DNA from: Chlorobiaceae bacterium
GTDB lineage: Bacteria > Bacteroidota > Chlorobiia > Chlorobiales > Chlorobiaceae
Length of the DNA stretch: 64,000 nucleotides
Direction of reading: 5' to 3'
Assembly (NCBI GenBank): GCA_013334965.1
Contig: JAAXWO010000008.1
Coordinates: 1-64,000, forward strand
Shown one piece after another: positions 2,072-63,370 of this stretch. Position numbers and translations under genes: made by a program. Below the pieces are notes generated by a model. That model worked only from the letters and a program-made list of their open reading frames with translations. It had not been told where the DNA came from and made no database searches. How positions within the stretch are numbered: the first letter of the stretch is position 1; every line of letters starts with the position of its first letter.

Positions 2072-2074
2072 TAG

Positions 2075-2215: not shown

Positions 2216-2231
2216 AGGGAAGTCGGCGGTC

Positions 2232-3251: not shown

Positions 3252-3358
3252 TACGTCGGTATTGTTGCTGATATACGCCGTTTTCTGTTTCGTCTTCCAT
3301 TCTGCGGCAGTGCCATGTTACGAAAATATTGGCTCCGCACAACCCTTCGCTCAACTCC

Positions 3359-3392
3359 AAGACTCAGGGACGTTGTTGAATAGGTGAAATAA
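3359..3392 (+). repeat. dispersed repeat, copy C
   Basis: AAGACTCAGGGACGTTGTTG followed by AATAGGTGAAATAA, one of three near-identical copies. It lies about 110 bases upstream of the pfkA start codon, in the direction opposite to the gene. Confidence 0.65.
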
Positions 3393-4547: not shown

Positions 4548-4597
4548 CTGTTCGGTTTTACTACAAAAGTTTGCACGAAATCGTGAAAGGAGAAAAA

Positions 4598-5035
4598 ATG
4601 AATAAAACTATCAGAACCATCCTGTTGGGCCTTATGCTTATGGGCTTCCAGACGGCAATCGCAGTTGCTGAGGATTTCACCTTTATCGTTCCGATCCAGA
4701 TAACGAACCTGCATCCTGACATCACGAAAGGAAGAGTCAGTGTCTGGGTTACGAAATTCAAGAGCGCATCCCCGGTTGATCCTGTAAAGTGCGGCGGAAC
4801 GCAGGAGTTCGACATCGTCGGGGGAAATTACAACAGCTCACTCACGATGAAGTTCAATACGGCGCCCGGGAGCAACCCTGCCGATGCGCATTACTGGTCG
4901 TGCAACATGGACCTCTATTCCGTAACCCTCGGCTGGAGACCAGCAGGCTTCCAGTTCGATATTTACGCAGCGGGCGGTCCCTACAAGTTCGACAACGTGA
5001 ACTCCGTTCTTGGTGCTTCAGGGACTATTCCTTAA
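4598..5035 (+). CDS. small exported protein of unknown function
   Basis: 145 residues with a clear signal peptide (MNKTIRTILLGLMLMGFQTA, cleavage near AVAED). The mature part is beta-rich by appearance (TFIVPIQITNLHPDI, RVSVWVTKF) with a few cysteines (CGGTQEF, YWSCNMD) that could form a disulfide. The start is set by AAAGGAG seven bases before the ATG at 4598. No family recognised. It follows the repeat-containing exported protein by 50 bases, so the two may be co-expressed. Confidence 0.7.
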   Translation: MNKTIRTILLGLMLMGFQTAIAVAEDFTFIVPIQITNLHPDITKGRVSVWVTKFKSASPVDPVKCGGTQEFDIVGGNYNSSLTMKFNTAPGSNPADAHYWSCNMDLYSVTLGWRPAGFQFDIYAAGGPYKFDNVNSVLGASGTIP

Positions 5036-5073
5036 CAGTAACTTTTCGGGCAGACGTCGTTCTGCCCTTTCAA

Positions 5074-5106
5074 AAGACTCCGGGACGTTGTTGATTAGAT
5101 CAAATA
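5074..5106 (+). repeat. dispersed repeat, copy D
   Basis: AAGACTCCGGGACGTTGTTG followed by ATTAGATCAAATA, slightly diverged from copies B and C but in the same orientation, 39 bases after the stop codon of the preceding gene. Confidence 0.6.
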
Positions 5107-5173
5107 GCGACTTTTTTCATCAAGTGCCGCTGGCTTGTCCAATTTCCTTTTGCAACATAAACAATAGCTTGCG

Positions 5174-5638
5174 ATGAAGATCAACCAAGCTCGCCGAGTT
5201 GTGTCGGCTGTTTTCCTGATGGCGATGGGGTTTACCTTTCCCGGGGTGCTTTATTCGTCGGAAGCGCCGGGAGAGGTCCCGAAAGTCCACACTCCTGCAT
5301 CCGGTAACGTGGAGCGCAAGGTATTACTTGATGCCATTCGTGCAGAGGTAAAAGAAATGCATGGGCTTGATGTGATTTTTGTCGTGAAGGAAATGAATGT
5401 CAGCGATGGGTGGGCATGGGTGCATGCGCTTCCTCGTTCCAGGGACGGTAGTTGTCTATATGAGGATTTATACGCCCTTTTACGTAGAGAGAAGAGCGAG
5501 TGGATGGTTGCGGAAATGCCTTGTACGGAGCCGGATAATTCGGAGTGTATCGATAGTCCTGATTATTTCAGGAATATCGTTGCGCGTTATCCTGATATGC
5601 CGGTGACTATTCTTCCCAAAGAGAGTGCTCGTGATTGA
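5174..5638 (+). CDS. exported protein of unknown function
   Basis: 154 residues. The first ~29 form a signal peptide (MKINQARRVVSAVFLMAMGF, ending near LYSSEA). The mature domain is a compact alpha/beta type with WAWVHALPRS near residue 82, EDLYALLRREKSEWMVAEMP near 97-116 and CTEPDNSECIDSPDYF near 117; the two cysteines of the last motif may pair. It resembles small periplasmic proteins of unknown function that occur in several bacteria, but I cannot name a family. No strong ribosome site is visible. Confidence 0.65.
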   Translation: MKINQARRVVSAVFLMAMGFTFPGVLYSSEAPGEVPKVHTPASGNVERKVLLDAIRAEVKEMHGLDVIFVVKEMNVSDGWAWVHALPRSRDGSCLYEDLYALLRREKSEWMVAEMPCTEPDNSECIDSPDYFRNIVARYPDMPVTILPKESARD

Positions 5639-5649
5639 ATGGATTTATG

Positions 5650-5673
5650 GGCGTTCTTGAACAGGTGAATCAT
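5650..5673 (+). repeat. dispersed repeat-like sequence, copy E (upstream of intact RAYT)
   Basis: GGCGTTCTTGAACAGGTGAA followed by TCATAAA; a diverged relative of the dispersed repeat, at the same distance from the RAYT ATG as copy A is from the truncated RAYT. Confidence 0.35.
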
Positions 5674-5728
5674 AAAGTTGATCTGGAAAGCGTGAGTTTT
5701 TCAAAGAAGAGTGGATTCGGAGGTATAT

Positions 5729-6691
5729 ATGCCGAGAGGAGCGAGGTTGGATGCCCCGGGAACATTGCATCACGTGATCTTTCGGGGAATAGAGAGTGGC
5801 GCGATATTCCTGGATGACCTGGATCGGGCCGAATTTGTTCGCCGGTTACGGGAGCTTGCGAAGGCTACAGGAACCACTTTTTACGCTTTTGCCATGATGA
5901 CCAATCATGTGCATCTCCTCCTTAAAAGCGGGAAGACAGGGCTTTCGACGTTCATGCGTCGCCTGTTGTCCGGATATGCCCAATACTACAACCGCCGGCA
6001 CCTGAGGGTGGGTCATCTGTTCCAGAACCGATACCGCTCCGTCATCTGCGAAGAAGATGCCTATTTCACCCAGCTGGTCGCCTATATTCATCTCAATCCC
6101 TTGAAGGCCGGAATCGTCAGTTCGTTGGATGAACTTGCGTCATATCTCTGGTGCGGCCATTCGGTACTGATGGGCAGGCAGGTGTGCGATTGGCTTGACC
6201 GGGACTATTCGTTGCAGTTTTTCGGTTCCAAAGAGGGGGCTGCGAAGAGTGCTTACCTGAAGTTTCTGGCATCGGAGATGAAAATCGACCGTGAAGATGA
6301 GTTGACTGGCGGAGGTCTTGTGAGGTCACATGGGGGATGGTCGAACGTGCTGTCGATGAGGAGGCAGGGGCTTCAGGAGCTCGGGGATGAAAGGATTCTC
6401 GGGAGCGGGGAGTTTGTTCAGTCGATTCTCGATCAAGCGGAGGAGACGAGTAAACGACAGGTGTCCGGAAGCGAACGTATCGAATTGATGCGCAAGGAGA
6501 TCGATACTGTTTGTCAAAGGGCCGGATGTACGGCTGAGATGCTGAGGTCTGGCGGAAGAAGAAGTCCGTTGCCGGAGTTGAGGAAGGAAATTGCGAGGAA
6601 ATTTGTGGAGGAGTTAGGCGTCAGCCTGGCTGAAACGGCGCGTCAGATCGGAGTGACGACAAGCGCCGTGTGCGTGATGCTGCAACGATAG
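5729..6691 (+). CDS. REP-associated tyrosine transposase (RAYT), IS200-like with C-terminal HTH
   Basis: A 320-residue Y1/HUH single-strand transposase of the RAYT group, single-copy-domesticated relatives of IS200/IS605 transposases. Residues 1-130 hold the catalytic domain: MPRGARLDAPGTLHHVIFRG, the HUH motif TNHVHLLLK near 60, GHLFQNRYRS near 92 and YIHLNPLKAGIV near 113 with the family's conserved tyrosine region (AYFTQLVAYIH). The C-terminal ~80 residues end in a helix-turn-helix (LAETARQIGVTTSAVCVMLQ) similar to the DnaA-type C-terminal helix-turn-helix seen in related proteins. GGAGG five bases before ATG 5729 sets the start; a GTG at 5711 is in frame but lies before that site. All catalytic positions look intact, so it may be active. 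Confidence 0.9.
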   Translation: MPRGARLDAPGTLHHVIFRGIESGAIFLDDLDRAEFVRRLRELAKATGTTFYAFAMMTNHVHLLLKSGKTGLSTFMRRLLSGYAQYYNRRHLRVGHLFQNRYRSVICEEDAYFTQLVAYIHLNPLKAGIVSSLDELASYLWCGHSVLMGRQVCDWLDRDYSLQFFGSKEGAAKSAYLKFLASEMKIDREDELTGGGLVRSHGGWSNVLSMRRQGLQELGDERILGSGEFVQSILDQAEETSKRQVSGSERIELMRKEIDTVCQRAGCTAEMLRSGGRRSPLPELRKEIARKFVEELGVSLAETARQIGVTTSAVCVMLQR

Positions 6692-6901
6692 CTCGGTCTG
6701 TGAAGTTTGTGACATATATCAATTGATTTTCGGGACTGATTGCCAAAATTGCAGCTTAACGTCGGTTGTTTCGGCGATCGCTTTCTTGCGGAGTGTCATG
6801 GCTCTTCGGGTTAGTGCAGTTTTTACTGTATCAAGGAAGCTTCTGACACTTAGGTCATGGAGCAGGTCGCTCCGAAAAACAATTTTCATGTTTCAATTAT
6901 T

Positions 6902-8119
6902 ATGACGGGATCACCAGGAGTTTTCGAGCCTGCGAATATAGGCGGCATTTCTGTTCGCAACCGCTTTATCCGTTCTGCGACGCACGAGGGGATGGCGGAT
7001 ACGGCAGGGGCTCCGCTGGAGTCCCTCGAGAAACTGTATGTCCGTCTTGCAAGAGGCGGTGTCGGCGCTATTGTTACCGGTTATGCAGGCGTGCTGCCGC
7101 AGGGCAGGTGCTGTTTTCCCGGGATGCTGATGATGCATGATGATGCATTGGTGCCCGCTTACCGGCGGCTTGTCGAAGCTGTGCACCGCGAGGGTTCGCC
7201 GTTGATCATGCAGCTTGCCCATTGCGGAAGCCAGACCCGTTCGGCGGTCACCGGCATGCGGACTGTTGCGCCCTCGCCGATACGGGACCGTTATTATAGC
7301 GAGGAGGTGCCCCAGGAGCTGACGGAGGCGGGGATAAGGGAGATCATCGACGCATTTGTCGATGCTGCCGAGAGGGCCCAGGCAGCGGGTTTCGATGGGG
7401 TGCAACTGCACTTGGCGCATGGGTACCTTCTGTCGCAGTTTCTTTCCGGTCACTCGAACCGAAGGAGAGACCATTGGGGCGGTTCTCTCGAAAACCGATT
7501 CCGGATCGTTTCGGAGATTATGGACGGTATCCGGCGGAGGCTCGGGAAGTATCCGGTGCTGGCAAAAATAAACGGTTACGACGGCATGTCCGGCGGGATG
7601 CGGCAGGAGGAGGCCGTGAAAATAGCCATGATGCTTGAGGCCTCAGGATGCTCGGCTGTGGAGATCTCTTCCGGTACGATCGCCGAAGGATTGGCGATCA
7701 TGCGGGGGCCTCGGGTGCCGATCGACGCATTGCTCGTTGCAAACTTCAAGGTAGCTGCCGTGCCCAGGTTTCTTCGGTCAGGTTTTGCCCGTATTCTGCC
7801 GCTCGTCTCTCCGTCTAGCCCGAAACCATACCATTCCTACAACCTGGATGCAGCCAGCGTTATCAGGAAGGCCGTTTCGATCCCTGTCGTTCTCGTCGGT
7901 GGTATCCATACCTTCATGGATGCGTCAAGAGCCATTGAGGATGGAGCCGCTGATTTCGTTTCGATGTCACGTCCCTTCATCATTGAGCCCTCCATTGTGA
8001 AGAGGTACGAAGAGGGGCGGCAGGATGCCTCGAAATGCTCCATGTGCAATGATTGCGCGATCATGATCGAAAAAGAGCCGCTTCGCTGCTGGAACGGCAG
8101 GGTGCGCCAAGGGGTGTGA
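6902..8119 (+). CDS. Old Yellow Enzyme family NADH:flavin oxidoreductase
   Basis: FMN-dependent TIM-barrel ene-reductase of the OYE/2,4-dienoyl-CoA reductase type. Seen: the N-terminal NRFIRSATHEGMAD, GGVGAIVTGYAGV, MQLAHCGSQT, then FDGVQLHLAHGYLLSQFLS with the paired His-x-x-His-like substrate contacts, NRRRDHWGGSLENRFR, VVLVGGIHTF and DFVSMSRPFI (phosphate binding). Near the C-terminus CSMCNDCA gives three close cysteines, like part of the Fe-S motif of the long 2,4-dienoyl-CoA reductases, yet the downstream FAD/NAD domain is absent and the protein ends about 20 residues later. The physiological substrate is unknown. Start at 6902 is chosen because homology begins there; an in-frame ATG at 6857 would add 15 unlikely residues. 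Confidence 0.85.
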   Translation: MTGSPGVFEPANIGGISVRNRFIRSATHEGMADTAGAPLESLEKLYVRLARGGVGAIVTGYAGVLPQGRCCFPGMLMMHDDALVPAYRRLVEAVHREGSPLIMQLAHCGSQTRSAVTGMRTVAPSPIRDRYYSEEVPQELTEAGIREIIDAFVDAAERAQAAGFDGVQLHLAHGYLLSQFLSGHSNRRRDHWGGSLENRFRIVSEIMDGIRRRLGKYPVLAKINGYDGMSGGMRQEEAVKIAMMLEASGCSAVEISSGTIAEGLAIMRGPRVPIDALLVANFKVAAVPRFLRSGFARILPLVSPSSPKPYHSYNLDAASVIRKAVSIPVVLVGGIHTFMDASRAIEDGAADFVSMSRPFIIEPSIVKRYEEGRQDASKCSMCNDCAIMIEKEPLRCWNGRVRQGV

Positions 8120-8354
8120 TATCTGGCTCAAGTAAGCTTTGCCAGGGGCCAGATCCGTGGAATATCATGCTGTGAAAAGTCATATCGGCAGGAATGCTGG
8201 AGCTGAAGAGTCAGGGAGATCCTGTTGCCAGTCTAACAGAATATCATCGTTGCTTGTTGATTGCCTCCCTGCTTTCGTACTTTTCGATCGTATCTATTTG
8301 CATATATTTTTATCAGCAGGCCGTGAATTACCTCTAACCTGACATATCACAGTG

Positions 8355-8816
8355 ATGGTACGAAATATCCTTTCGTTCTGGCGAACGGCAGCAAAAACGG
8401 CTGTCATAGGCGCGTTTATCCTCCTCACCGGTATCCTGATCGCCCGGTCACCCATCGCACCATCTCAAGCTATGGCTTCGCGGTTGGAATCGGATGAAAT
8501 CACTCTCGCAGAAGCCAAAACGCTCTTTGACGCCAGGAAAGCCTTCTTTGTCGATGCCCGTTCAGAGTACGTCTTTTATATTTCGCACATCACGGGAGCG
8601 CGTTCACTCTCTTCCAGTCGTTTCGATGAGCAGTTCCCAGAGTTCCGTCAGCAGATTCCTGCCGAAACCCTGATCGTGGTCTATTGCATCAACTCCAGAT
8701 GCGGCAAGGCTCGCGACGTGGCGAATCTGCTAAAGAAGAACGGTTACCACAACGTAAAGGTACTCACGGAAGGAATCGCTGAGTGGAATAAGGCTGGTTA
8801 CCCTATTGGTACCTGA
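8355..8816 (+). CDS. exported or membrane-anchored rhodanese-like protein
   Basis: About 153 residues. The N-terminal 40 hold one hydrophobic segment (AVIGAFILLTGILIARS), so the domain faces the periplasm, anchored or cleaved near SQAMAS. The rest is a single rhodanese domain: ITLAEAKTLFDARKAFFVDA, the substrate-site stretch FYISHITGARSLSS, and the active loop VVYCINSRCGKARDVANLL with the catalytic cysteine, ending in GIAEWNKAGYP. Rhodaneses transfer sulfane sulfur or act as redox sensors. The next gene, a MauE/DoxX-like membrane protein, starts about 30 bases on, a pairing suggesting a shared periplasmic sulfur or disulfide role. No clear ribosome site; GTG 8352 is equally possible. Confidence 0.8.
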   Translation: MVRNILSFWRTAAKTAVIGAFILLTGILIARSPIAPSQAMASRLESDEITLAEAKTLFDARKAFFVDARSEYVFYISHITGARSLSSSRFDEQFPEFRQQIPAETLIVVYCINSRCGKARDVANLLKKNGYHNVKVLTEGIAEWNKAGYPIGT

Positions 8817-8847
8817 AGTTGCACGCAATGACGGGGCGCATGTTACC

Positions 8848-9327
8848 ATGAACTTGAAACACCGTTCGATTTACAAGAGTGCAATAACTGCGATCAGGCT
8901 TTTGATGGGGGCTGTATTCGCAGCATCAGGAATTGAAAAACTCGTCGATCTGAAATACTTCGGGTTAGTCATCGCAGAGTACCAGCTTATTCCTCACGGA
9001 CTCATCCCGGCGTTGGCGCTGCTGGTATCGTTGGCGGAACTCATCTGTGGCGTGATGTTGCTTTTTGGAATCCTGACTCGTGCCAGTTCCCGGCTCCTGC
9101 AGGCACTTCTGATCGCCTTTGTTTTCGGTATGGCCAACAATTTCATCCGCGGGCTGGATCATGAGTGCGGCTGTTTCGATCTGGTGACCCAGTGGTTCGG
9201 GATCAGGGAAGAGATCGGCATCGCATCCATCATGCGTGACCTGGTGTTTATTGCGCTTCTGCTGCCCCTGTCACTTCAATGCAGCGACAGTCCCTTCTGG
9301 CGGAAACAGTTTCGAGACCGTTCTTGA
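8848..9327 (+). CDS. MauE/DoxX-family membrane protein
   Basis: A 159-residue protein with four predicted membrane helices (AITAIRLLMGAVFAASGIEK, then ALALLVSLAELICGVMLLFG, a third around LLIAFVFGMANNF, and a fourth near DLVFIALLLPLSL). The pattern FAASGIEKLVDLKYFG and the pair CGCF between helices 3 and 4 match the MauE-like branch of the DoxX superfamily, which supports disulfide or electron-transfer chemistry in partner proteins. It follows the rhodanese gene in the same direction with about 31 bases between, so it is probably in the same transcript. A TTG at 8806 would overlap the upstream gene; ATG 8848 begins just before the first helix. Substrate unknown. Confidence 0.75.
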   Translation: MNLKHRSIYKSAITAIRLLMGAVFAASGIEKLVDLKYFGLVIAEYQLIPHGLIPALALLVSLAELICGVMLLFGILTRASSRLLQALLIAFVFGMANNFIRGLDHECGCFDLVTQWFGIREEIGIASIMRDLVFIALLLPLSLQCSDSPFWRKQFRDRS

Positions 9328-9339
9328 GAGCGAGAGTTA

Positions 9340-9450
9340 TTGAGAGAGGTTGCGAGGAGATTTGTGTAAGAATTTGGAGTCGGTCAGGTTGACTGTTTGT
9401 GTCGGTTTGGTGTGGCGATAAGCGCTGTAAGTGTAATGTGAGAAGGATAA
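9340..9450 (+). pseudogene. decayed C-terminal tail of a third RAYT
   Basis: Translating from 9340 gives LREVARRFV, stop, EFGVGQ..., GVAISAVSVM, stop, which lines up with the last ~38 residues of the intact RAYT (LRKEIARKFVEELGVSLAET and GVTTSAVCVML). The DNA similarity is obvious, for example TTGCGAGGAGATTTGTG against TTGCGAGGAAATTTGTG. Two in-frame stops show it is dead, and nothing of the catalytic domain is left upstream, where the MauE-like gene ends. Confidence 0.75.
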
Positions 9451-9515
9451 TGCTGTCGATTGGTTCTGATGTTATTTTAACTAATAAACAACGTCCCCAA
9501 CTTTTGGAGGTTTGA

Positions 9516-10058
9516 ATGAAACATCCGTTTGTTTGGTTAGCGGCAGGTCGTAGGGGTTCTGTGCTGGCCTCGCTGGTGTTTGTCTGCGTTGTTTTGATGA
9601 TCGCGCTTTCGGTGATCGGAAATGGGTTGACGATGAAGGCGCAGGGGGTTGCCTGTGGGGTGTATAACATCGAGCTGCCATGGAGTCCTGAGCGGGCGGC
9701 ATCTGTTGTCGCCGCCTGGCGCGACGGCAAGCAGCTTGGTGCGGCGATCGAACAGACCCGTCTCGATTTTCTTTTCCTGATGATCTATCCGGCGACATTA
9801 AGCCTTGCCTGCGTCGTTTCATCCGGTAGATGCTTTGGCACAATTGCCACGGTCGGTATCGTTTTGTCCTGGGCGGTTCTGCTTTGCACGCCACTGGATT
9901 TCATCGAGAATATCCTCATCCTGAAGATGCTCGGCGGTGACATTCAGGCGCCGGTGCCACAGCTGACGAGCTCTGTCGCCCTCGCCAAGCTTTTTCTGGG
10001 CGGAAGTGCTGTGGTTTATCTGGTGTTCGCGAACATCTTGAAAAAGCGGCATCGTTAG
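9516..10058 (+). CDS. four-helix membrane protein of unknown function
   Basis: 180 residues. Hydrophobic segments at about 15-35 (SVLASLVFVCVVLMIALSVI), 85-103 (DFLFLMIYPATLSLACVVS), 108-127 (GTIATVGIVLSWAVLLCTPL) and 152-173 (ALAKLFLGGSAVVYLVFANI) predict four membrane helices. Between helices 1 and 2 is a ~45-residue loop (GVYNIELPWSPERAASVVAA). GGAGG with good spacing before ATG 9516 supports the start. No family recognised and no partner gene is evident. Confidence 0.7.
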   Translation: MKHPFVWLAAGRRGSVLASLVFVCVVLMIALSVIGNGLTMKAQGVACGVYNIELPWSPERAASVVAAWRDGKQLGAAIEQTRLDFLFLMIYPATLSLACVVSSGRCFGTIATVGIVLSWAVLLCTPLDFIENILILKMLGGDIQAPVPQLTSSVALAKLFLGGSAVVYLVFANILKKRHR

Positions 10059-51386: not shown

Positions 51387-53663
51387 ATGAAAACATATCA
51401 GCGATATTCAAATAAGTATATAGCGCTCACCTCACTGCTCGTCGGCTTGGCCGCAAGTCCACTGCCTGCATTTGCCATTGAGGTGCTTGGCCCTGAAATC
51501 ACCGTTACGGCAAAGGCAGAGAAGACCGGGGAACAGACAGAATCAAAAAAAGCAAGAAGCAGCGATACGGCTGCGATGCTTCTGGATCAGCCCGGCGTAG
51601 CGCTTCAGAGCGGAGGCGGAGTATCCAGCCTGCCGGTTATCCATGGTCTTGCAGACGATCGTGTGATGATCCAGATTGACGGTATGTCTCTGATCTCCTG
51701 CTGCCCGAACCACATGAACCCCGCTCTATCTTACCTCGATCCCAGTCAGGTTGGATCGTTAAATGTCTATGCAGGCATTTCTCCTGTGAGTTTAGGTGGC
51801 GACAGCATCGGCGGCACAATCGTGGCGGACACCCGAGCGCCAGAATTTGCTCCCAATGGGCAGAGAAGCATCACCAAAGGAGAGGTGGGGTCGTTTTATC
51901 GCAGTAATGGCAACGCTAAAGGGGGAAATTTTTCACTTTCCCATGCTACGGAGAATCTGAGTGTTTCCTATCGCTTCTCCATTGCCGATTCTGACAACTA
52001 CCTTGCGGGAGGCAAATTCAAGAACTTCGTCGCGACCGGAAATCCAGGTCATCTACTCTCCCGGGATGAAGTAGGCTCAACCGCCTACGAAACCATGGGA
52101 CACACCCTGGATCTGGCATGGCGCAACGATGGAGACCTCTATGAAGCAAAACTGGCATATCAGGATGTCCCATTCCAGCTTTATCCGAACCAAAGAATGG
52201 ATATGCTGGACAACAAGGAGTACCGGATCAACCTGCACTACAACGGAAAGAAAAGTTGGGGTAAACTCGATGGCCGTATATACAGGGAGTGGGTAGACCA
52301 CTATATGGATTTCGGTACGGACAAACAGCTTATCTACGGGTCAGCTCCTTATGTCGTAGCGAACGGGATGCCGATGTATACCGACGGAAAAACCTTTGGG
52401 GCAAAGCTCCTGGCTGATATTGACCTGAACAAGCGCGACCTGGTTCGAATCGGTGCGGAAATGCAACTTTATCGTCTCGATGACTGGTGGCCACCATCAC
52501 CAGCGAACCTGAACGGGATGCTTTTCAGCGCCATGAACCCGGTACAGGCAACCTATGCAGGAATGGCTCCTGATACCTTCTGGAACATCAACGGGGGCAA
52601 GCGCGACCGATTCGGGTTGTTCTCGGAATGGGAAGCCAAATGGAATTCTGAGTGGATGACGCTGATCGGAGCCCGAATCGAGCAGGTAAACATGAATACA
52701 GGTCCGGTACAGGGATATAACAGCGTTGCAAACAACGCAATGTATTCGACTGGGTACCTGATTTCAGCAACCAGTTTCAATGCGCTCGACCGGAAAAGAA
52801 ACGACACCAACCTCGATCTTGCCGCATTGGTGCGTTACACTCCTGATGAGACCCTGAACTATGAATTCGGTATCGCCCAGAAAACACGCACGCCGAATCT
52901 CTATGAGCGCTATTCCTGGTCACGCAATGCTATGGCGCTGGTCATGAACAACTTCGTCGGCGACGGCAACGGGTATCTCGGCAACCCCGACCTGAATCCT
53001 GAAGTTGCACACACGATAAGCGTAAGCGCAAGCTGGCACAATGCTGACAAATCGCGAGAAATCAAGGTTGCTCCCTTTTACACGCATGTTACGGATTACG
53101 TCGATGCCGTGCAGTGGAATCGCACGACCAACCTGGCTGCCGCAAATACACCCGGCCAGTTCGGCATCCTGAAATTCATGAACCAGCAGGCACGTCTCTA
53201 CGGTGTAGATTTTTCAGGAAAATGTTCATTGGGCAACAACGCTTTGGGTAAATGGGGGCTCATCGGTATCGCGAGCTATGTCAACGGCCGCAACCTTGAT
53301 ACTGACAGCGGTTTGTACAATGTCATGCCGCTGAATGCAAAGGTTTCATTACAGCAGAAGTCTGGGAATTTGGAAAATACCCTCGAAATGGTTGCTGTAG
53401 CGGACAAGAACGACATTTCGGCCCCCCGCCAGGAGCTGAAAACTCCGGGATACACGCTGTTCAACTGGCGAGGCAGCTACACGTATCAGAACATGCGTAT
53501 CGATTTCGGCGTGGAGAACCTGTTTGACAAGTTGTACTATATGCCGCTTGGAGGAGCTTATGCCGGGCAGGGGACAACCATGTCATTGACAGGAATTCCC
53601 TATGGGATCTCGGTCCCCGGTATGGGACGCTCCGTCTATCTCGGTATGAACTACAAATTCTGA
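51387..53663 (+). CDS. oprC: OprC-like TonB-dependent copper receptor
   Basis: 758 residues. A signal peptide (LTSLLVGLAASPLPAFA) is followed by a plug domain (EITVTAKAEKT, SSLPVIHGLADDRVMIQIDG) and a 22-strand barrel ending in YLGMNYKF, the usual aromatic end. The copper-site motifs of P. aeruginosa OprC are both present: CxxxM as C106-PNH-M110 in the plug (SCCPNHMNPALSYLDPSQV) and HxM as H305-Y-M307 (WVDHYMDFG) in the barrel. This makes copper the likely substrate. It takes up metal with energy from TonB-ExbBD, not encoded here. Upstream are a small Cys-motif protein and a palindrome; downstream a Sel1 protein. Confidence 0.93.
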   Translation: MKTYQRYSNKYIALTSLLVGLAASPLPAFAIEVLGPEITVTAKAEKTGEQTESKKARSSDTAAMLLDQPGVALQSGGGVSSLPVIHGLADDRVMIQIDGMSLISCCPNHMNPALSYLDPSQVGSLNVYAGISPVSLGGDSIGGTIVADTRAPEFAPNGQRSITKGEVGSFYRSNGNAKGGNFSLSHATENLSVSYRFSIADSDNYLAGGKFKNFVATGNPGHLLSRDEVGSTAYETMGHTLDLAWRNDGDLYEAKLAYQDVPFQLYPNQRMDMLDNKEYRINLHYNGKKSWGKLDGRIYREWVDHYMDFGTDKQLIYGSAPYVVANGMPMYTDGKTFGAKLLADIDLNKRDLVRIGAEMQLYRLDDWWPPSPANLNGMLFSAMNPVQATYAGMAPDTFWNINGGKRDRFGLFSEWEAKWNSEWMTLIGARIEQVNMNTGPVQGYNSVANNAMYSTGYLISATSFNALDRKRNDTNLDLAALVRYTPDETLNYEFGIAQKTRTPNLYERYSWSRNAMALVMNNFVGDGNGYLGNPDLNPEVAHTISVSASWHNADKSREIKVAPFYTHVTDYVDAVQWNRTTNLAAANTPGQFGILKFMNQQARLYGVDFSGKCSLGNNALGKWGLIGIASYVNGRNLDTDSGLYNVMPLNAKVSLQQKSGNLENTLEMVAVADKNDISAPRQELKTPGYTLFNWRGSYTYQNMRIDFGVENLFDKLYYMPLGGAYAGQGTTMSLTGIPYGISVPGMGRSVYLGMNYKF

Positions 53664-53894: not shown

Positions 53895-54290
53895 ATGAAG
53901 AGATGCATCCCGGCCATTCTGCTCATGATGATCTCCCTGGCCGATATCGCTCATGCAGATGCCCGTCGTGTTCAGATTACCATGGAGGCCGCAAAAGAGG
54001 GCGATGCGGCAGCACAGAACAGGCTTGGAGTCTTCTATGAAATCGGGGCAAGTATCGAACAGAGCGATACCGAGGCTGTAAAGTGGTTCCGTATGGCTGC
54101 TGATCAGGAACATGGAGAGGCGCAGTACAATCTCGGTGAGATGTATGAACAGGGGAGAGGTGTGCAAAAAAACATTCAGGAAGCGATTGCACTCTACAAA
54201 AAATCATGTGCAAATGGATGTAAATGTGCCTGTAAACGTTATCGCCTGCTTACAGGAGAAGAAAAGGAGGCTCCTGAGGTTACTTTTTAG
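53895..54290 (+). CDS. small exported Sel1-repeat protein with Cys-rich tail
   Basis: 131 residues: signal peptide (MKRCIPAILLMMISLADIAH), two to three Sel1 repeats (AKEGDAAAQNRLGVFYEIGA, DTEAVKWFRMAADQEHGEAQ, YNLGEMYEQGRGVQKNIQEA), and a C-terminal CANGCKCACKRY with four cysteines within ten residues. Compared with the other Sel1 protein (13555-14157, ending CDNGHSRAC), the cap here has more cysteines and may bind metal or form disulfides. Lies 231 bases after the copper receptor. Confidence 0.8.
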   Translation: MKRCIPAILLMMISLADIAHADARRVQITMEAAKEGDAAAQNRLGVFYEIGASIEQSDTEAVKWFRMAADQEHGEAQYNLGEMYEQGRGVQKNIQEAIALYKKSCANGCKCACKRYRLLTGEEKEAPEVTF

Positions 54291-55323: not shown

Positions 55324-56556
55324 ATGAGAAGAAAATTAACCATTGCCTCAGTTGTATCACTGTGTACTGTGCCGATGCTGTTGCCGAGCCAGGACGCTTC
55401 GGCTATTCCGGTATTCGCACGTAAGTACCAGACATCCTGCTACACCTGTCACTCTGGGTTCCCGACCAGAAACGCATTCGGAGAAGCGTTCAGAAACAAC
55501 GGTTATCGCTGGCCGGGTGGGGAAGATGAGGATAAGTCAAAGCAGGAACAGCTGAAGCTGGGCGCAGATGGCTGGAAAAAAACCTTCCCGGAAACTCCGT
55601 GGCCAGGCGAAATTCCGGGTTACGCTCCCGTTTCGCTCTGGATCAGAGGCGATCTGCTCAAGTTCACCCAGGAGACCACTAACCCCAATGGAACGGTCAA
55701 CACCAAGCAGCTTCTGAACAACTCCAACGGCCCGTTGGGCAGCACTACCTTGTTCTTCGGCGGCACCATGGGTGACAACCTTTCCGCATTCGGTCAGTAT
55801 AACATGGGCGCTACGGCAACCGCTGCTACCGGTCACCTTATCTGGGCATTCAAGCCGGGCATCAACGTTGCTTTTGGTAATGGTTTCACCGAGTGGAGCT
55901 TCGGTAACGCCATCTCGACCTATACCGGCACCTTCCCGACCCAGGGTCTCGGAACGGAATTCACCTATACCACCGGTGACAAGGGCGGCTTCAAGCTGGC
56001 GGCAGGTTCCTCACAGAATGGTAATGCTGTGGCGACGGCGGCCAACAGCGTGAATGACCTCATGTATCTCAGGGCTAAATACAAATTCGGCGGTGCAGGT
56101 CTTCTGAGCGGTGCAGGTGGAACATACGGCAACGAATTTGTCGGTCTTGACAACCACATTGCGCTTGGAGCAACCTATGTCAATATCAAAAAAGGCGTTC
56201 TGACGACTGGTAACTATGCTGGCGAAACCGCGGTATACGGTGCAGACGTAACCGGCAACATCGGCAACCTGTCGTTAGGCGCAGCTTACAGCAGGGACCA
56301 GGACCTCAAACTTGACAACTATAGGGTTGATGCGATCTATTTCCTCTACCCATGGATGAAGGCCACCATGACCTACGCCAATGTCAGGTCGGGTGACAAA
56401 GCAAACCAGCCGACAGTGGCGGCAGGCGTTACCGCCCATCTCAGGGCAAATGCCTATCTTACTGCGCTTTACACCTATCAGACAAAGGAAAGGAACACGC
56501 CGACAAGCGTCTCTAACCCTGATACGTTTGCGCTCACAGCAGGCTTCTGCTTCTGA
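55324..56556 (+). CDS. cyc2: Cyc2-type outer-membrane cytochrome-porin
   Basis: A 410-residue fused monoheme cytochrome c and beta-barrel porin, the type shown to oxidise iron(II) at the outer membrane in Acidithiobacillus and in neutrophilic iron oxidisers. Signal peptide cleaved after QDASA (about 27). Next to the N-terminus is the heme site CYTCH at residues 39-43 inside FARKYQTSCYTCHSGFPTRN and AFGEAFRNNGYRWPG, the Cyc2 signature. From about residue 75 the barrel follows: ISLWIR-like SLWIRGDLLK, STTLFFGGTMGDNLSAFGQY, FKLAAGSSQNGN, IALGATYVNIKK, NIGNLSLGAAYS, WMKATMTYANVRSGD, NAYLTALYTYQTKERN, ending in FALTAGFCF. AAAGGGAG before ATG 55324 sets the start. Two hairpins follow the stop. Confidence 0.94.
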   Translation: MRRKLTIASVVSLCTVPMLLPSQDASAIPVFARKYQTSCYTCHSGFPTRNAFGEAFRNNGYRWPGGEDEDKSKQEQLKLGADGWKKTFPETPWPGEIPGYAPVSLWIRGDLLKFTQETTNPNGTVNTKQLLNNSNGPLGSTTLFFGGTMGDNLSAFGQYNMGATATAATGHLIWAFKPGINVAFGNGFTEWSFGNAISTYTGTFPTQGLGTEFTYTTGDKGGFKLAAGSSQNGNAVATAANSVNDLMYLRAKYKFGGAGLLSGAGGTYGNEFVGLDNHIALGATYVNIKKGVLTTGNYAGETAVYGADVTGNIGNLSLGAAYSRDQDLKLDNYRVDAIYFLYPWMKATMTYANVRSGDKANQPTVAAGVTAHLRANAYLTALYTYQTKERNTPTSVSNPDTFALTAGFCF

Positions 56557-56908: not shown

Positions 56909-57448
56909 ATGCAGGATCAGTATGAAAATCCCGTGTCTGGAAACGGCCCAGAGGTATCCGGAGACAGGCGGCAATTTCTTACACGCGTAGGATGGGGGAG
57001 TCTTGCCGGCTTTCTCGCGATCAACTCTTTCGCGTTTTTACGCTTCTTTTTCCCAAGAGTGCTATTCGAACCACCGTCAAGATTTAAAGTCGGATTTCCC
57101 AATGATTATCCGCCGGGTGTGGTGAATTCGCAATATCAGAGGGAGTTCGGCACCTGGATCATCCGGTTGCAGGACGGACGTTTTTTTGCGATGGAATCCA
57201 GATGTACGCATCTCGGGTGTACGCCCAGCTGGATGGAGTCGCAGAAAAAATTCAAATGTCCGTGCCACGGCAGCGGCTATTACATTACCGGCTTGAACTT
57301 TGAAGGCCCGGCTCCGAGACCGATGGACCGTTTCAAGATCAGTATCGCCGAGGATGGTCAGCTTCAGGTGGACAAGACCATCAAGTACCCTGGCATACCG
57401 GGAAGGGAATCGAACGAAGTCTATCCACAGAGCCTTCTGAAGGCTTGA
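56909..57448 (+). CDS. petC: Rieske iron-sulfur protein
   Basis: 179 residues; the [2Fe-2S] subunit of a cytochrome bc-type complex. N-terminal membrane anchor (VGWGSLAGFLAINSFAFLRF), preceded by DRRQFLT which resembles a Tat signal with its RR. The cluster-binding motifs are complete: CTHLGC (99-104) and CPCHGS (117-122), with GPAPRPMDRF after them. First gene of a compact run (ferredoxin, cytochrome b, subunit IV, octaheme cytochrome). 352 bases after cyc2, and beyond its hairpins, so probably its own transcript. Start by ATG 56909; no strong ribosome site. Confidence 0.95.
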   Translation: MQDQYENPVSGNGPEVSGDRRQFLTRVGWGSLAGFLAINSFAFLRFFFPRVLFEPPSRFKVGFPNDYPPGVVNSQYQREFGTWIIRLQDGRFFAMESRCTHLGCTPSWMESQKKFKCPCHGSGYYITGLNFEGPAPRPMDRFKISIAEDGQLQVDKTIKYPGIPGRESNEVYPQSLLKA

Positions 57449-57480: not shown

Positions 57481-57819
57481 ATGGATACCATCGAAGAGAT
57501 AATTGAAGTCTCGGATCATTCGACAGCACAAGGCGCGCCGGCAACACGTAAAAAAAGGGCTACAGCACAAGTTAACGTAGATCTTTGTACTGGCTGCCGC
57601 ATCTGTGCAAACGTTTGTCCGGTCAACTGCGTCACCATCGTAGCGTCTGAGCTTAACTTCAACGGTGTCTCCAGTGTCGATCAGCAACGCTGTACAGGTT
57701 GTAATATCTGCGCGATCGATTGCCCGTGGTTTGCAATCGAAATGCAGTTCGCTGACGGATCAAGAAGAGACCCTGCTGAATATGCAAAGCAGTTGCAGAG
57801 GCTGCGAGGCTACAGATAA
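57481..57819 (+). CDS. 2[4Fe-4S] ferredoxin within the bc operon
   Basis: 112 residues with an acidic N-terminal ~28-residue extension and two complete 4Fe-4S motifs: [15 protein letters not shown] near residue 36 and [13 protein letters not shown] near 71. No signal peptide, so it is cytoplasmic, unlike the rest of the operon, whose redox centres face the periplasm. The short GGAG before the ATG is a fair ribosome site. It lies 32 bases after the Rieske gene and 29 before cytochrome b. Why a soluble ferredoxin belongs to a bc operon is unknown (see findings). Confidence 0.93.
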
Positions 57820-57848: not shown

Positions 57849-58616
57849 ATGAACGATTTATTTAACAAGGTGAAAAAAAATCTGATATGGAAATCCGTAT
57901 TCAGAAGGGATTACCGGGATAACGTCAGGGATCGCGCCCTGGCTATCTTCGGTAACGTGTTTCTTCACCTTCATCCTGTGAAGGTTCGCGAAAGCGCCGT
58001 GAAGCTCAGATATACCTGGGGTATGGGCGGTATTACGTTCCTGGCATTCATTATCCTGACCATCACCGGTGTTGTGCTGATGTTCTACTATCATCCCACA
58101 GTCGATCAGGCCTACTCTGACATGAAGGATCTGGAGTTCCAGGTTCCCTATGGTGTCATAACGAGGAACCTGCACAGGTGGGGAGCGCATTTCATGGTCA
58201 TTGTCGTAATGATCCACATGTTCAGGGTATTCATGACCGGCTCTTACAAGGCGCCGCGTCAGTTCAACTGGGGCATTGGAGTCATTCTGCTCGTTTTGAC
58301 GTTCCTGCTGAGTTTCACCGGTTACCTGCTTCCATGGGATCAGCTGGGATTCTGGGCGATCACCGTCGGTACCAACATGGGTGCGGCGACGCCGTTGCTT
58401 GGCTATCAGGGACCGTTCAGCGAATATCTTCACATTACGCCTTATAATGACGTTCGCTTCGCTCTTCTCGGTGGTGCAATAGTCGGTGGTAACGCGCTGC
58501 TCAGATCCTATATCTGGCATTGCATCGCCATCCCGCTTATCGCAACCATTTTAATGGTAGTCCATTTCTGGAGAGTCAGAAAAGACGGTGGAATTTCAAG
58601 ACCTCAAAATAACTGA
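57849..58616 (+). CDS. petB: cytochrome b (b6-type N-terminal half)
   Basis: 255 residues, four predicted membrane helices carrying hemes bL and bH. The histidine ligands have exact b6 spacing: H109 and H123 ([19 protein letters not shown]), H224 and H239 ([19 protein letters not shown]). Other b6 marks: [40 protein letters not shown]. The residue that binds heme ci in b6f complexes (Cys35 of b6, two before GG-I-T) aligns with Gly58, so no heme ci attachment is predicted, and the complex is more like a bc1-type or menaquinol type. The gene is split: the C-terminal half is the next gene. Confidence 0.93.
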
Positions 58617-58630
58617 CAGGGCAAGAGACT

Positions 58631-59515
58631 ATGAACCCATTTATCGAAATCATTACCCAGCCAGATAATATTGCCATCGTGATCATGATCTTGATGGTGA
58701 GCTTTTTCATGGTATGGGCTTTTCAGCAGGCTTTTCAGAACGACAAGCTCAAGTCGGCAGGATATGCCGTTGACGGTGAACTCGACAAGGATGTCGATAC
58801 CTTCAAGCCTCTTGTACGCATTGAGCTTCTGATCTCGCTGGCGGTCATGCTGTTCCTGACTGTCTGGTCGATTGTTGTCGATGCCCCACTGGAAGAGATT
58901 GCAAACCCGACGTTGACACCGAACCCTGCAAAAGCGCCCTGGTACTTCCTTGGCCTTCAGGAACTGCTGGTTTACTTCGATCCCTGGCTTGCGGGTGTCG
59001 TCCTGCCGTCATTGATCGTCGTCGGTCTTATTGCAATTCCCTATATCGACATCAACCCGAAAGGAAACGGATATTACACCTTTTCAGAAAGGAAATATTC
59101 TATCCTGATTTTCTCGTTCGGCTTTTTCGTGCTTTGGCTCCTTCTGATCGTTATCGGCGTTTTCGACAGGGGACCGGGATGGTTGTGGTACTGGCCCTGG
59201 CAGGAGTGGGATATCCAAAGGGTTGTTTATGAGCCCACCAGGGATCTCTCAAATCTTGTAGGTATTGAGTCCCGTTCATTGCCAGGATTTATAATAGGTG
59301 CCGTTGTCGTGGGCGCTTATATGATCGGCGGAATGATCTGGCCTTACAAATACTGGCAGAAGAAAAATCCCGAAATGCTCCAGCAGCTCGGCATGACTCG
59401 TTATGTCACTATTGTATTTCTCTTCATCACGATGATGTCTGTGCCGATCAAGATGATCCTGAGGCTGGTTTTCCTTGTTAAATATGTATGGATAACCCCC
59501 TGGTTCAACGTGTGA
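58631..59515 (+). CDS. subunit IV-like C-terminal half of cytochrome b
   Basis: 294 residues, about six hydrophobic segments, longer than the ~160 residues of subunit IV of b6f. Carries the quinol-site region NPAKAPWYFLGLQELLVYFD, in which the usual PEWY reads A-P-W-Y (P103 W104 Y105), so the glutamate is replaced. Variation here is known in low-potential (menaquinone) complexes. The C-terminal part adds two more helices (IGAVVVGAYMIGGMIWPY and VFLFITMMSVPIKMILRLVF) absent from plant subunit IV. Fourteen bases after petB, so co-translated. Confidence 0.9.
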   Translation: MNPFIEIITQPDNIAIVIMILMVSFFMVWAFQQAFQNDKLKSAGYAVDGELDKDVDTFKPLVRIELLISLAVMLFLTVWSIVVDAPLEEIANPTLTPNPAKAPWYFLGLQELLVYFDPWLAGVVLPSLIVVGLIAIPYIDINPKGNGYYTFSERKYSILIFSFGFFVLWLLLIVIGVFDRGPGWLWYWPWQEWDIQRVVYEPTRDLSNLVGIESRSLPGFIIGAVVVGAYMIGGMIWPYKYWQKKNPEMLQQLGMTRYVTIVFLFITMMSVPIKMILRLVFLVKYVWITPWFNV

Positions 59516-59566
59516 TGCACGGATCCATTTCAGGTACTGTATTGCCCATCAAAAATTCTGTTGAAT

Positions 59567-62179
59567 ATGGCGAATGAGAATAACAACAAATCCCCGTACA
59601 GAGCGTATCTCTTTGTTTTTTTCAGTGTCTCCCTGTTGATTCTTTCGGCTTGGGTAATCTGGAACGACGAGTTCGGTCTGAGACCGTGGAAGCATTACCA
59701 GAAAGAGTACAAGTCGTTGAAGCATGACCAGCTTGTCAATGACTACAAGAAAGCTCAGCTGGAGTTTCACAGAAGCGGTGGGGCAAAGCGCCTTGCCGAC
59801 CTCAAGGCTCAGCTCAGCAAGGCTGAAGAGGCTCTGAAAAGCAAAGGCGTCGGAGAGAAGTACACCCAGTTAAGCAATAAGCTGGATGAACTCCAGAAGC
59901 AGGCCTCTGACAACCAGAAAAAGCTTCAGACGGTTCGCGGCAAGTATCTGGAAACTGAGTATTTCTTCACAAAAACTCAGAAACCTGAATACAAAAAGCA
60001 GATGGATGAGCTGCAGCTCCAAATCGATGCCATTGATAAACAGGGCAAGGAGCTTCAGGCCAAACAGGAGCCGGTCAGCCAGTCCATGTCACAGCTTGCA
60101 GGCAACATTCCTGCAATCAAGGCCGAAATTGAACAGCTGAACAAAATCCTTGAAGACAAAAAAGAGAAAATTGCGAATAACGAGACCGCACCGATCGAGA
60201 TCAAGCAGTTTCTTATCAAGGATATAGATAAGGCTGACCGTTGCGTTTCCTGCCATGTAGGAATTGATTCGCCGAAGCAGCCATCGACTAAACAACCGTA
60301 TACCAAGCATCCCCTGATGTCAGTCTATCTTGGGCACCATGACCCAGGAAAATTCGGATGTACATTCTGCCATCGAGGTCAGGGACGTGCGACGACTACT
60401 GTTGAAAAGGCACACGGCAAAGCGAAGTATTGGGATGAACCGCTTCTTAAGGGTGACATGACCCAGACTTCATGCCTGAATTGCCATGGCGACATCAAGA
60501 ACCTTCGCGGTGCTGAAAGCATTACCAAAAACACCGAGCTGATCAGGAAATACGGTTGCTACAGCTGCCACAAGATTCCCGGTTACGAAGGGATGGGCGA
60601 TGTAGGGCCCGAACTGACCCAGGTCGGAACAAAGGTAAATTATACTTGGGCCGTAGACTGGCTGCTTGATCCCAAGAAGTACTTCTCGACGGCTCGTATG
60701 CCCAAGTTCTACTTTACCCAGGACCAGGCTGAAGCCATTGCAGATTACCTCTTCAGCATGTCGGGTTCAGAAAGGAAAGATGTCGACATTGCCGCAGTAA
60801 AGAACGATCCCAAGCTTGTCGAGCAGGGGAAGGTTCTGTGGAGCCAGGCGCGATGCAACCTTTGCCATGCCACAGGCGGACGCGGCGGTGACCACTCGAA
60901 GGTCTATGCACCTGACCTGAGCAAGGTCGGCAGCAAAGTAAACAAGACCTGGTTGTTCAACTGGATCAAGGATCCGAACAAGTATTTCCCGGGCACGAAA
61001 ATGCCGCGCTTCAGGTTTACTGATCAGGAGATCAGCGCTCTTGTAGATTATATCGCAAACGAATACCAGGACGATGAGGCTGAGAGCAAGTATGCCACTC
61101 CGCAAACGATTCAGGCCGAATCCATCAAAAAGGGTAAAGACCTGGTCCAGCAATACGGATGTTATGGTTGCCATAAGATGCGTGGCATGGAGATGGTTCA
61201 GGTTGCTCCTTCGCTTAAAGCCCAGGGGGTTACCTTCCTGAGAAGTGATGAAATGCGTGAGAAAATCGGTACGGAGCTCTCTTCCATTGGCAGCAAGCCG
61301 CTTGAATTGCTCGATTTCGGTAAACTGAAAAAATCGATTCCGAACGATCGTCTCAGCTACATCAAGCAGAAGTTGCGCGATCCAAGGGGCTTCCGTCTGG
61401 GCCTGCGCATGCCTAACTTCAGGCTATCAGAAAAAGAGGTTAATGAGCTGTCCGCTGTTCTGTATGGATTCACCGATTCAAACGCTCCTGTGCGTTTCAT
61501 GGTACCGTCCCGACAGGAACTTGACAAGATGGCCGGTGTGCAGGGATATAAATTCACCGGTGACTTCGCCAAGGTTATCGCTGATGTGAAGTGCACGAAC
61601 TGTCATACGATCAAGGGAATCGGCGCTGATTATGCACCGGATCTTACGCTGGCTGGCAGCAAGCTGCAGGAGAGCTGGATTCGCAACTTCCTTGCAAACC
61701 CTGACATGATCCGTCCGCTGCTGCAGCAGATGCCTAAGCTCGGGTTGAGCCAGGCCAAGAATCCGGTTAAGGTAACCATGCCCAAGTTCAATCTCGGCAA
61801 GCAGAAGGTAGAAGACACCAACAGGTCTGATGTGGATGTCGTGGTCAACTACTTCCAGCAGGAGCTGGTAACGACCGATATCCCGAAAAACATCCCTGTC
61901 ATCGCCGATGTCGCCATGCCTGAACAGATAGCACAAGGCAAGAAGCTTTACGATGATAAAGGATGTATAGCCTGTCACCAGATCGGCACGGACGGCGGTG
62001 CAGTCGGCCCGAACCTGTCAAACGTCGGCAATCGCCTGTTACCAGGCTTTATCTTCAAGCATCTTGAGAATTCACGGAAGTTCAAGTCGGATATCGTCGA
62101 ACCGAATTACGGCTTTACAGAACGCGAAAGAGTTCTCTTGACAAACTTTTTGATGACCCTGAAACTCAGTGCCAAGTGA
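59567..62179 (+). CDS. membrane-anchored octaheme cytochrome c
   Basis: 870 residues. An N-terminal helix (AYLFVFFSVSLLILSAWVI) anchors it, then about 190 residues of charged coiled coil (KAQLSKAEEALKSKG, KLDELQKQASDNQKKLQTVR, AEIEQLNKILEDKKEKIANN) hold it away from the membrane. Eight CxxCH heme sites follow, at residues about 226, 265, 303, 331, 430, 532, 676 and 800 (CVSCH, CTFCH, CLNCH, CYSCH, CNLCH, CYGCH, CTNCH, CIACH). Several later ones sit in class-I-like domains with GPELTQVG or APDLSKVG and a MP or WxxxWL motif. It takes the place of cytochrome c1 and c. ATG 59567 or TTG 59561; no strong ribosome site. Confidence 0.92.
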   Translation: MANENNNKSPYRAYLFVFFSVSLLILSAWVIWNDEFGLRPWKHYQKEYKSLKHDQLVNDYKKAQLEFHRSGGAKRLADLKAQLSKAEEALKSKGVGEKYTQLSNKLDELQKQASDNQKKLQTVRGKYLETEYFFTKTQKPEYKKQMDELQLQIDAIDKQGKELQAKQEPVSQSMSQLAGNIPAIKAEIEQLNKILEDKKEKIANNETAPIEIKQFLIKDIDKADRCVSCHVGIDSPKQPSTKQPYTKHPLMSVYLGHHDPGKFGCTFCHRGQGRATTTVEKAHGKAKYWDEPLLKGDMTQTSCLNCHGDIKNLRGAESITKNTELIRKYGCYSCHKIPGYEGMGDVGPELTQVGTKVNYTWAVDWLLDPKKYFSTARMPKFYFTQDQAEAIADYLFSMSGSERKDVDIAAVKNDPKLVEQGKVLWSQARCNLCHATGGRGGDHSKVYAPDLSKVGSKVNKTWLFNWIKDPNKYFPGTKMPRFRFTDQEISALVDYIANEYQDDEAESKYATPQTIQAESIKKGKDLVQQYGCYGCHKMRGMEMVQVAPSLKAQGVTFLRSDEMREKIGTELSSIGSKPLELLDFGKLKKSIPNDRLSYIKQKLRDPRGFRLGLRMPNFRLSEKEVNELSAVLYGFTDSNAPVRFMVPSRQELDKMAGVQGYKFTGDFAKVIADVKCTNCHTIKGIGADYAPDLTLAGSKLQESWIRNFLANPDMIRPLLQQMPKLGLSQAKNPVKVTMPKFNLGKQKVEDTNRSDVDVVVNYFQQELVTTDIPKNIPVIADVAMPEQIAQGKKLYDDKGCIACHQIGTDGGAVGPNLSNVGNRLLPGFIFKHLENSRKFKSDIVEPNYGFTERERVLLTNFLMTLKLSAK

Positions 62180-62628
62180 TGAAAACAAAAGTATCAATCA
62201 GCAAATTCGCCCTTTTCGCCGCAATCCCCGCGCTTATGCTCGCGGGGTGCGGCAAACCGCAGGGCAAGGCAGGGAAAGTTATCGCAAAAGGCGGGTCGGC
62301 TGACTCTCTGGCTGCCGCCGAGGCCAATGCGAACCTGCCTTTCGATGTAAAGGAAGGCAAACGCCTGTTTTCCCACTACTGTTCGGTATGCCACGGGGAG
62401 ACCGGTGATGGAACAGGTCAATATTATGGTTCTTCACTGCAGCCTTCGCCAGCTAATTTCACCGACAAGGCTTTCATGAAAAACATGACAGATGAGTCCC
62501 TGACCAAATCCATCACTGGTGGTTCTGCATCTGTCGGAAAATCAAACATGTGTCCTCCATGGGGAAAAACGTTTGAAAGCGATGAAATCGAGTGTCTGGT
62601 CGCATATGTAAAAACATTTTCTAAATAA
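62179..62628 (+). CDS. monoheme cytochrome c lipoprotein
   Basis: 149 residues. Lipoprotein signal with lipobox LMLAGC, then a spacer and one cytochrome c domain: VKEGKRLFSHYCSVCHGETG carries CSVCH, and the sixth ligand is a Met, probably in SNMCPPWGKTF. Its ATG overlaps the preceding stop (TGATG), so translation is coupled to the octaheme gene. It is a probable mobile or tethered electron carrier between Cyc2 and the complex or the photosynthetic reaction centre. Confidence 0.92.
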   Translation: MKTKVSISKFALFAAIPALMLAGCGKPQGKAGKVIAKGGSADSLAAAEANANLPFDVKEGKRLFSHYCSVCHGETGDGTGQYYGSSLQPSPANFTDKAFMKNMTDESLTKSITGGSASVGKSNMCPPWGKTFESDEIECLVAYVKTFSK

Positions 62629-62779: not shown

Positions 62780-63370
62780 ATGAAAAGTGGATTTTTGAAA
62801 ACTGCACTTATGGTGGCAGGCCTTGGATTCGTATCTACAAACGCTTTTGCAGGAACAGTAACTGGAACGGTTGACGCTTCCAATCCAAAATTCAAGAAAG
62901 ACGCCGTTGTATACCTTAAGGGTGTAAAGGGTCCTCTTGCACCGAAAAAAGCTGTAGTCGATCAGAAGAACCTGGTGTTCATTCCTCATGTTCTTGCAGT
63001 GCCGACCGGTTCTACCGTCGATTTCAAGAACAGCGACAAGGTGAACCATAACATTTTCTCTGCTGACGTCTGCAAAAAGTTCAACCTCGGAACATACAAT
63101 CCCGGTATGTCCAAGGCTGTTGTCTTTGACAAGCCTTGCATCGTGAACCTCCTCTGCAACGTCCACTCTGAGATGTCCGGTTATGTTGTCGTCGTCGACA
63201 GCAACTACTCCGCTGTAACCGGCGCAGACGGCAAATTCACCATCAGCAACGTTCCCGCCGGCACCTATGAAATCACGGCATGGAGCGAGAAGCTGAAACC
63301 AGTTGGGACAACAACGGTTACCGTCGCTGACGCCGGTACAGCAACAGCTGCCATCAAGCTCGCGAAGTAA
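62780..63370 (+). CDS. cupredoxin-like electron carrier with C-terminal CarboxypepD-like domain
   Basis: 196 residues. Signal peptide MKSGFLKTALMVAGLGFVST, cleaved near NAFAG. The plastocyanin-like domain shows the type 1 copper ligands: His in FKNSDKVNHNIFSAD, and Cys, His and Met in NLLCNVHSEMSGYVVVV. A small beta-sandwich follows (DGKFTISNVPAGTYEITAWS), like carboxypeptidase regulatory domains attached to methylamine-utilisation-type cupredoxins. It probably carries electrons in the periplasm and uses copper. AAGGAG before the ATG; 151 bases after the lipoprotein cytochrome, and a strong terminator closes the unit. Confidence 0.9.
   Translation: MKSGFLKTALMVAGLGFVSTNAFAGTVTGTVDASNPKFKKDAVVYLKGVKGPLAPKKAVVDQKNLVFIPHVLAVPTGSTVDFKNSDKVNHNIFSADVCKKFNLGTYNPGMSKAVVFDKPCIVNLLCNVHSEMSGYVVVVDSNYSAVTGADGKFTISNVPAGTYEITAWSEKLKPVGTTTVTVADAGTATAAIKLAK

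Follow-up and report, generated by a model that had tools for sequence, protein, structure and literature searches.

In a 64,000-nucleotide stretch of Chlorobiaceae DNA (the window), a gene for a 2[4Fe-4S] ferredoxin (57481..57819, + strand) lies in an operon that encodes an additional b6-type complex (split cytochrome b and subunit IV) with an octaheme cytochrome c, and not an ordinary bc complex. We put at about 0.5 the probability that this ferredoxin serves the second, octaheme-type Rieske/cytochrome b complex as a dedicated cytoplasmic subunit, docked on its negative side and connecting the ferredoxin pool with heme bN as an electron relay, likely in the inward direction. Viewed across phyla, the protein appears to be one of a set of exchangeable cytoplasmic redox modules used by the Rieske/cytochrome b/octaheme complex.

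The ferredoxin and its operon

The ferredoxin consists of 112 residues, begins with ATG and has no signal peptide. An earlier note on this DNA had described intact cluster motifs, the absence of an export signal and spacings of 32 and 29 bases to the Rieske and cytochrome b genes, and all of these were confirmed. Both CxxCxxCxxxCP motifs are intact, the first formed by C36-C39-C42-C46 (57586..57618, + strand) and the second by C71-C74-C77-C81, followed by an invariant P82-W83 (57691..57723, + strand), and both are invariant across 19 operon ferredoxins. The Pfam matches (Fer4_21, 6e-13; Fer4, 1e-11) are each above the cut-off. The protein is predicted to be cytoplasmic, since no hydrophobic segment was found on examination of its N-terminus. 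The Rieske stop at 57448 is separated by 32 nt from the ferredoxin ATG at 57481, and the ferredoxin stop at 57819 by 29 nt from the cytochrome b ATG at 57849.

The ferredoxin comprises a disordered N-terminus (residues 1-24), an acidic two-cluster core (pI 4.1) and a basic C-terminal helix or tail (pI 10.3), which ends in RLRGYR (57751..57816, + strand) and is kept in Chlorobi but missing from the Ignavibacteria ferredoxins. One of five predicted structures was good (pLDDT 72.8, pTM 0.57). The conserved basic tail, a helix in this weak model, might together with the acidic core serve as a docking element. The gene is under purifying selection (dN/dS 0.06-0.24 for pairs with finite dS) and is the fastest-evolving of the four operon genes compared. 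Its fold matches are generic, with resemblance to domains of many enzymes and to PscB of the Chlorobi reaction centre, and a generic two-cluster ferredoxin of this kind could also be a soluble protein, co-transcribed with the operon but serving an unlinked cytoplasmic enzyme without stable contact to the complex. We regard this alternative as unlikely, though worth weighing; the conserved basic tail speaks against it, as do two features of its distribution described below.

The operon is read from the + strand throughout. The Rieske [2Fe-2S] subunit (56909..57448; PF00355, 1e-10) has CPCHGSGYY, with Ser and Tyr, as its box 2. Downstream of the ferredoxin are the cytochrome b6-like subunit (57849..58616; PF00033, 7e-41), with its four heme-b histidines at positions 109, 123, 224 and 239, and a subunit IV-like protein of 294 residues (58631..59515; PF00032, 1.6e-5) in which the Qo motif, KAPWY and not PEWY, is invariant across the family alignment, the PEWY Glu being replaced by Ala in 10/10 aligned family members. 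These are followed by an octaheme cytochrome c of 872 residues with eight CxxCH motifs and a helical N-terminal region (59561..62179, with a TTG start, or ATG at 59567), a conserved lipoprotein-like monoheme cytochrome c (62176..62628; PF13442, 1e-9) and an exported cupredoxin-like/CarboxypepD_reg protein (62780..63370) that is conserved at the operon end. A search between 55300 and 63400 for an NAD(P)/FAD reductase gene found none, the ferredoxin being present instead. A promoter and terminator scan gave matches at chance level.

Upstream of the Rieske gene lies a Cyc2-like cytochrome-porin (about 55324..56556, + strand), whose single N-terminal CxxCH (PVFARKYQTSCYTCHSGFP) leads into a long, probably beta-barrel region. 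It matched no Pfam or NCBIfam family model; the Cyc2 label comes from the motif only, the one CxxCH and the length fitting Cyc2, an Fe(II)-oxidising monoheme cytochrome fused to a porin. In those Chlorobiaceae operons whose upstream region was read, a homolog of the porin likewise precedes the Rieske gene. The same genome has a second homolog (G000:C4:69542-70792, 39% identity), and many Chlorobiaceae have several copies. Further 5' of the operon are genes for a TonB-dependent receptor (51387-53663) and a small repeat protein (53895-54290), and similar genes occupy the same place in two other loci (L058 and L062).

The host genome is of Chlorobiaceae type (2.48 Mb, with FMO and a PsaA/PscA-type match), and its canonical petC-petB, with fused cytochrome b and PEWY, sits elsewhere. 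The earlier note had placed the ferredoxin in the bc operon; the gene does lie within a Rieske/cytochrome b operon, but that of the second, b6-type complex. The canonical PetCB of green sulfur bacteria likewise relies on Rieske/cytochrome b quinol oxidation, and differs in its fused cytochrome b, PEWY motif and Rieske box CPCHGAKY, with no ferredoxin or octaheme cytochrome noted. The cytochrome b query matched all 61 Chlorobiaceae genomes, nearly all of them through fused cytochrome b of the canonical type.

Conservation of the ferredoxin and exchange of modules

Searches recovered the ferredoxin (E below 1e-34) in 25 of the 61 Chlorobiaceae genomes, and exactly these also yielded the second cytochrome b (E below 1e-150), a coincidence with Fisher p about 2e-17 as a plain count that ignores relatedness. 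In the remaining genomes neither the second cytochrome b gene nor the ferredoxin gene was found, save for one operon (G032) truncated where its contig stops within this gene. The order Rieske-ferredoxin-cytochrome b was kept in 32/32 operons measured, which include one from a Chlorobiales genome of another family (L057); the two intervals span 15-34 and 28-38 nt. Evolutionary distances of the ferredoxin and cytochrome b correlate with r 0.80 (30 genomes), the highest among the pairs tested, a value that shared ancestry alone could yield. The earlier note had named a lack of conservation in related operons as grounds for refutation, and this check came out in its favour: all Chlorobiaceae operons examined, the operon of L057 and several from Ignavibacteria contain the ferredoxin. 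The strict one-to-one tie to the operon in Chlorobi argues against a soluble ferredoxin serving an unlinked enzyme. A search of the open-licence literature found no account of this operon in Chlorobi, and its novelty is provisional.

Scanning a genome collection with subunit IV as the query yielded 80 loci from many phyla, nearly all of which, where enough sequence was available, contain the Rieske, cytochrome b, subunit IV and octaheme cytochrome genes. Both gene content and phylogeny assign the complex to the octaheme Rieske/cytochrome b6-type family (Kustd1480-1485/Nitrospina type). Modules were assigned by motif searches around each operon, which miss modules encoded elsewhere; some of the loci, moreover, are truncated at the end of a contig. 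The 2[4Fe-4S] ferredoxin was found in Chlorobi and in several Ignavibacteria-type genomes (L047, L052, L056, L075, L078 and L154). A four-motif polyferredoxin adjoins the octaheme Rieske/cytochrome b core in a Planctomycete, Melainabacteria MAGs and a Myxococcales MAG (L070, L114, L117 and L120), and GltD-like FAD/NAD(P) proteins that carry a dicluster domain at the C-terminus occur in Brocadia, a Planctomycetota MAG and more distant complexes of the phylum Bacteroidota. One locus (L054, genome G217, 1133-9756) has the order porin, cupredoxin-like, FAD/Fe-S protein, Rieske, cytochrome b, subunit IV, octaheme cytochrome and cytochrome c, which is the Chlorobi gene set with a GltD-like FAD/Fe-S protein replacing the ferredoxin. 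No module was detected by these motif searches near most operons of Acidobacteria, Poribacteria and Nitrospinota, nor near those of Binatota and others.

The best-supported reading is that the ferredoxin is a peripheral subunit of cytochrome b on its cytoplasmic face, since the operons of related complexes encode either a GltD-like NAD(P)/FAD/[4Fe-4S] protein or a polyferredoxin, and the anammox module has been modelled on that face (PMC12954380). The earlier note had raised this possibility, and the equivalent modules favour it; docking itself is proposed by analogy. That other Fe-S modules substitute in related operons also speaks against an unlinked soluble ferredoxin, although the position of the ferredoxin within the operon shifts in other phyla, as such a protein might allow.

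Other observations weigh against a dedicated subunit, among them the faster evolution of the ferredoxin gene noted above. A Desulfobacterales operon (L069) is similar but has no ferredoxin, and 65 of the 83 core complexes in the tree have no module at all. The gene set of L069 consists of monoheme porin-like, cupredoxin-like, Rieske, cytochrome b, subunit IV, octaheme and cytochrome c genes. Certain operon ferredoxins in other systems function in maturation, and the many core complexes that manage without the ferredoxin would also fit an assembly or maturation factor, acting in cluster or heme insertion or in sensing. We consider this role very unlikely, as both clusters are strictly kept in 19/19 aligned ferredoxins, and the FAD/NAD modules found in the same role suit redox chemistry better.

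In the tree of cytochrome b and subunit IV, the Chlorobi complexes share a clade (support 99/98) with the FAD-module complexes of Brocadia and Planctomycetota, with the polyferredoxin type of Planctomycetes and with a single module-less complex from Desulfobacterales. One clade of all ferredoxin-bearing complexes, as a single origin would suggest, was rejected on the core tree (AU p 5e-9). The association with the ferredoxin was thus gained or lost repeatedly, and a module present in the ancestor and lost many times may explain the pattern. Outside Chlorobi, dicluster open reading frames were counted inside and outside the operons (7 versus 2, of similar lengths; p 0.11, not significant), and an association with the operon beyond Chlorobi is suggestive. 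In two Ignavibacteria-type loci (L047 and L052), a heme-copper oxidase subunit-like gene follows the octaheme and cupredoxin-like genes, which suggests that the complex there feeds an oxidase.

Heme sites and the direction of electron flow

The earlier note had also proposed that the ferredoxin sits where heme ci would have been. The position of the heme-ci Cys is Gly58 in the second cytochrome b and Cys in the FAD-type relatives. However, Gly is also present in 36 of 63 relatives that have no ferredoxin, and the canonical Chlorobi cytochrome b is likewise without this Cys, so that a replacement of heme ci by the ferredoxin is not supported.

In AlphaFold3 models of anammox complexes, an NAD(P) reductase sits at the negative face and a path of Fe-S clusters runs from cytochrome b (PMC12954380). 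The same models include an additional heme b where the two copies of cytochrome b meet in the dimer, bound by His62 (Kustd1481) or His43 (Kuste4571) with Arg266/Lys267 or Arg247 at a spacing of 204. The second cytochrome b has His40 and Arg244/Lys245, with the same spacing of 204 as the modelled interface-heme site, and the corresponding Brocadia positions are 57 and 261. This spacing supports, at the level of sequence, the same architecture as in the anammox complexes. His40 is conserved in 88/88 sequences and Arg244 in 89/89, with or without a module; the residues are thus not diagnostic of module-bearing complexes, and because module-less complexes keep them, they do not point to the ferredoxin.

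We hypothesize that the ferredoxin docks on the negative side of the cytochrome b dimer and would there link the soluble ferredoxin pool to heme bN as an electron relay, perhaps through the additional interface heme of the anammox models. In Chlorobi, reduced ferredoxin would donate to the complex and menaquinone would be reduced, while menaquinol would be oxidised via the Rieske protein and the octaheme cytochrome, passing electrons to cytochrome c and P840. The net result would be ferredoxin-driven cyclic flow, generating proton-motive force when a donor enters at the cytochrome level without reducing quinone, iron through the Cyc2-like porin being one example. On thermodynamic grounds the direction is probably inward, since electron transfer from ferredoxin to menaquinone is downhill and outward bifurcation would be hard unless the ferredoxin clusters are unusually high in potential.

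The Rieske boxes bear on the reverse direction. Within one genome, CPCHGSGYY in the second complex compares with CPCHGAKY in the canonical PetC (L147:2199-2744), which has Ala for Ser. The Ser raises the potential, about 130 mV being lost on its mutation in yeast (PMC12954380), and the second Rieske protein, whose box contains it, is predicted to have a higher potential than its canonical counterpart. A high-potential Rieske protein, with the Ser and Tyr tied to this property, and the change of PEWY to KAPWY would suit a complex in which the same subunit works in reverse: menaquinol would be bifurcated at Qo, with the Rieske protein delivering to the octaheme cytochrome and hemes bP/bN to the ferredoxin, making reduced ferredoxin. 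Such a scheme was proposed for anammox with NAD(P) (PMC12954380), and the nearest complexes bear the NAD(P)/FAD modules in question. However, the Rieske Ser is general in the octaheme family, with or without a module, and the reaction centre already supplies reduced ferredoxin. Moreover, ferredoxin lies below NAD(P) and the electron would move against the membrane potential, so the drive available with P840 or cytochrome c as the sink looks insufficient, and we judge bifurcation to be improbable.

A fuller version of the inward reading is possible but doubtful: the operon would encode a ferredoxin:menaquinone oxidoreductase that closes cyclic flow at the type I reaction centre, the ferredoxin docking on cytochrome b at a socket that in other phyla accepts NAD(P)/FAD or polyferredoxin modules. 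The link between the reaction centre and menaquinone put forward in the earlier note may hold in Chlorobi but is not a general reason for the gene, as the Ignavibacteria with the ferredoxin have no FMO and no PsaA/PscA-type match, and a ferredoxin specific to phototrophs was rejected on this ground. Cyclic flow in green sulfur bacteria is only predicted (PMC11269200). A conserved ferredoxin-cytochrome b operon that some strains have and others lack makes two questions testable: how ferredoxin electrons get back to quinone around type I reaction centres, and whether ferredoxin can feed cytochrome b directly. Donors entering at the cytochrome level need such a route for ATP, and this may explain the neighbouring Cyc2-like porin.

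Comparison with known systems

Among the NCBIfam models, the top matches of cytochrome b and subunit IV were ExtP and ExtQ of the selenite/tellurite operon, with ExtS among the octaheme matches, at scores below the curated cut-offs (260.6 of 290, 52.7 of 150 and 79 of 100 bits, respectively). The PcmABCDEFG system of Geobacter metallireducens (PMC10989804), likened here by its published annotation only, includes a 4Fe-4S ferredoxin (PcmB) annotated as part of one complex with a Rieske protein (PcmE) and cytochrome b (PcmC and PcmD), but differs in having two cytochromes b and two tetraheme cytochromes. Nitrospina gracilis and Methylomirabilis possess an octaheme b6f-like operon (PMC3578206), which shares the Rieske protein, the split cytochrome b and the atypical octaheme cytochrome c with that of Chlorobi; unlike in Chlorobi, no Fe-S module was found in the Nitrospinota operons examined.

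The Kustd1480-1485 complex of Kuenenia, with its Brocadia homolog (L072), has the same Rieske protein, b6-like cytochrome b, subunit IV-like protein and long-helix octaheme cytochrome, as well as a cytoplasmic [4Fe-4S] module and the same His/Arg-Lys spacing in cytochrome b. The heme-ci Cys is present in Brocadia and missing in the second cytochrome b of Chlorobi. The module of the Kuenenia complex belongs to the GltD-like NAD(P)/FAD proteins and bears a dicluster domain at its C-terminus, whereas that of Chlorobi is a free 2[4Fe-4S] ferredoxin. This suggests that the modules on Rieske/cytochrome b complexes are exchangeable, and would extend the idea of cytoplasmic redox modules on such complexes from anammox bacteria to Chlorobi and Ignavibacteria.
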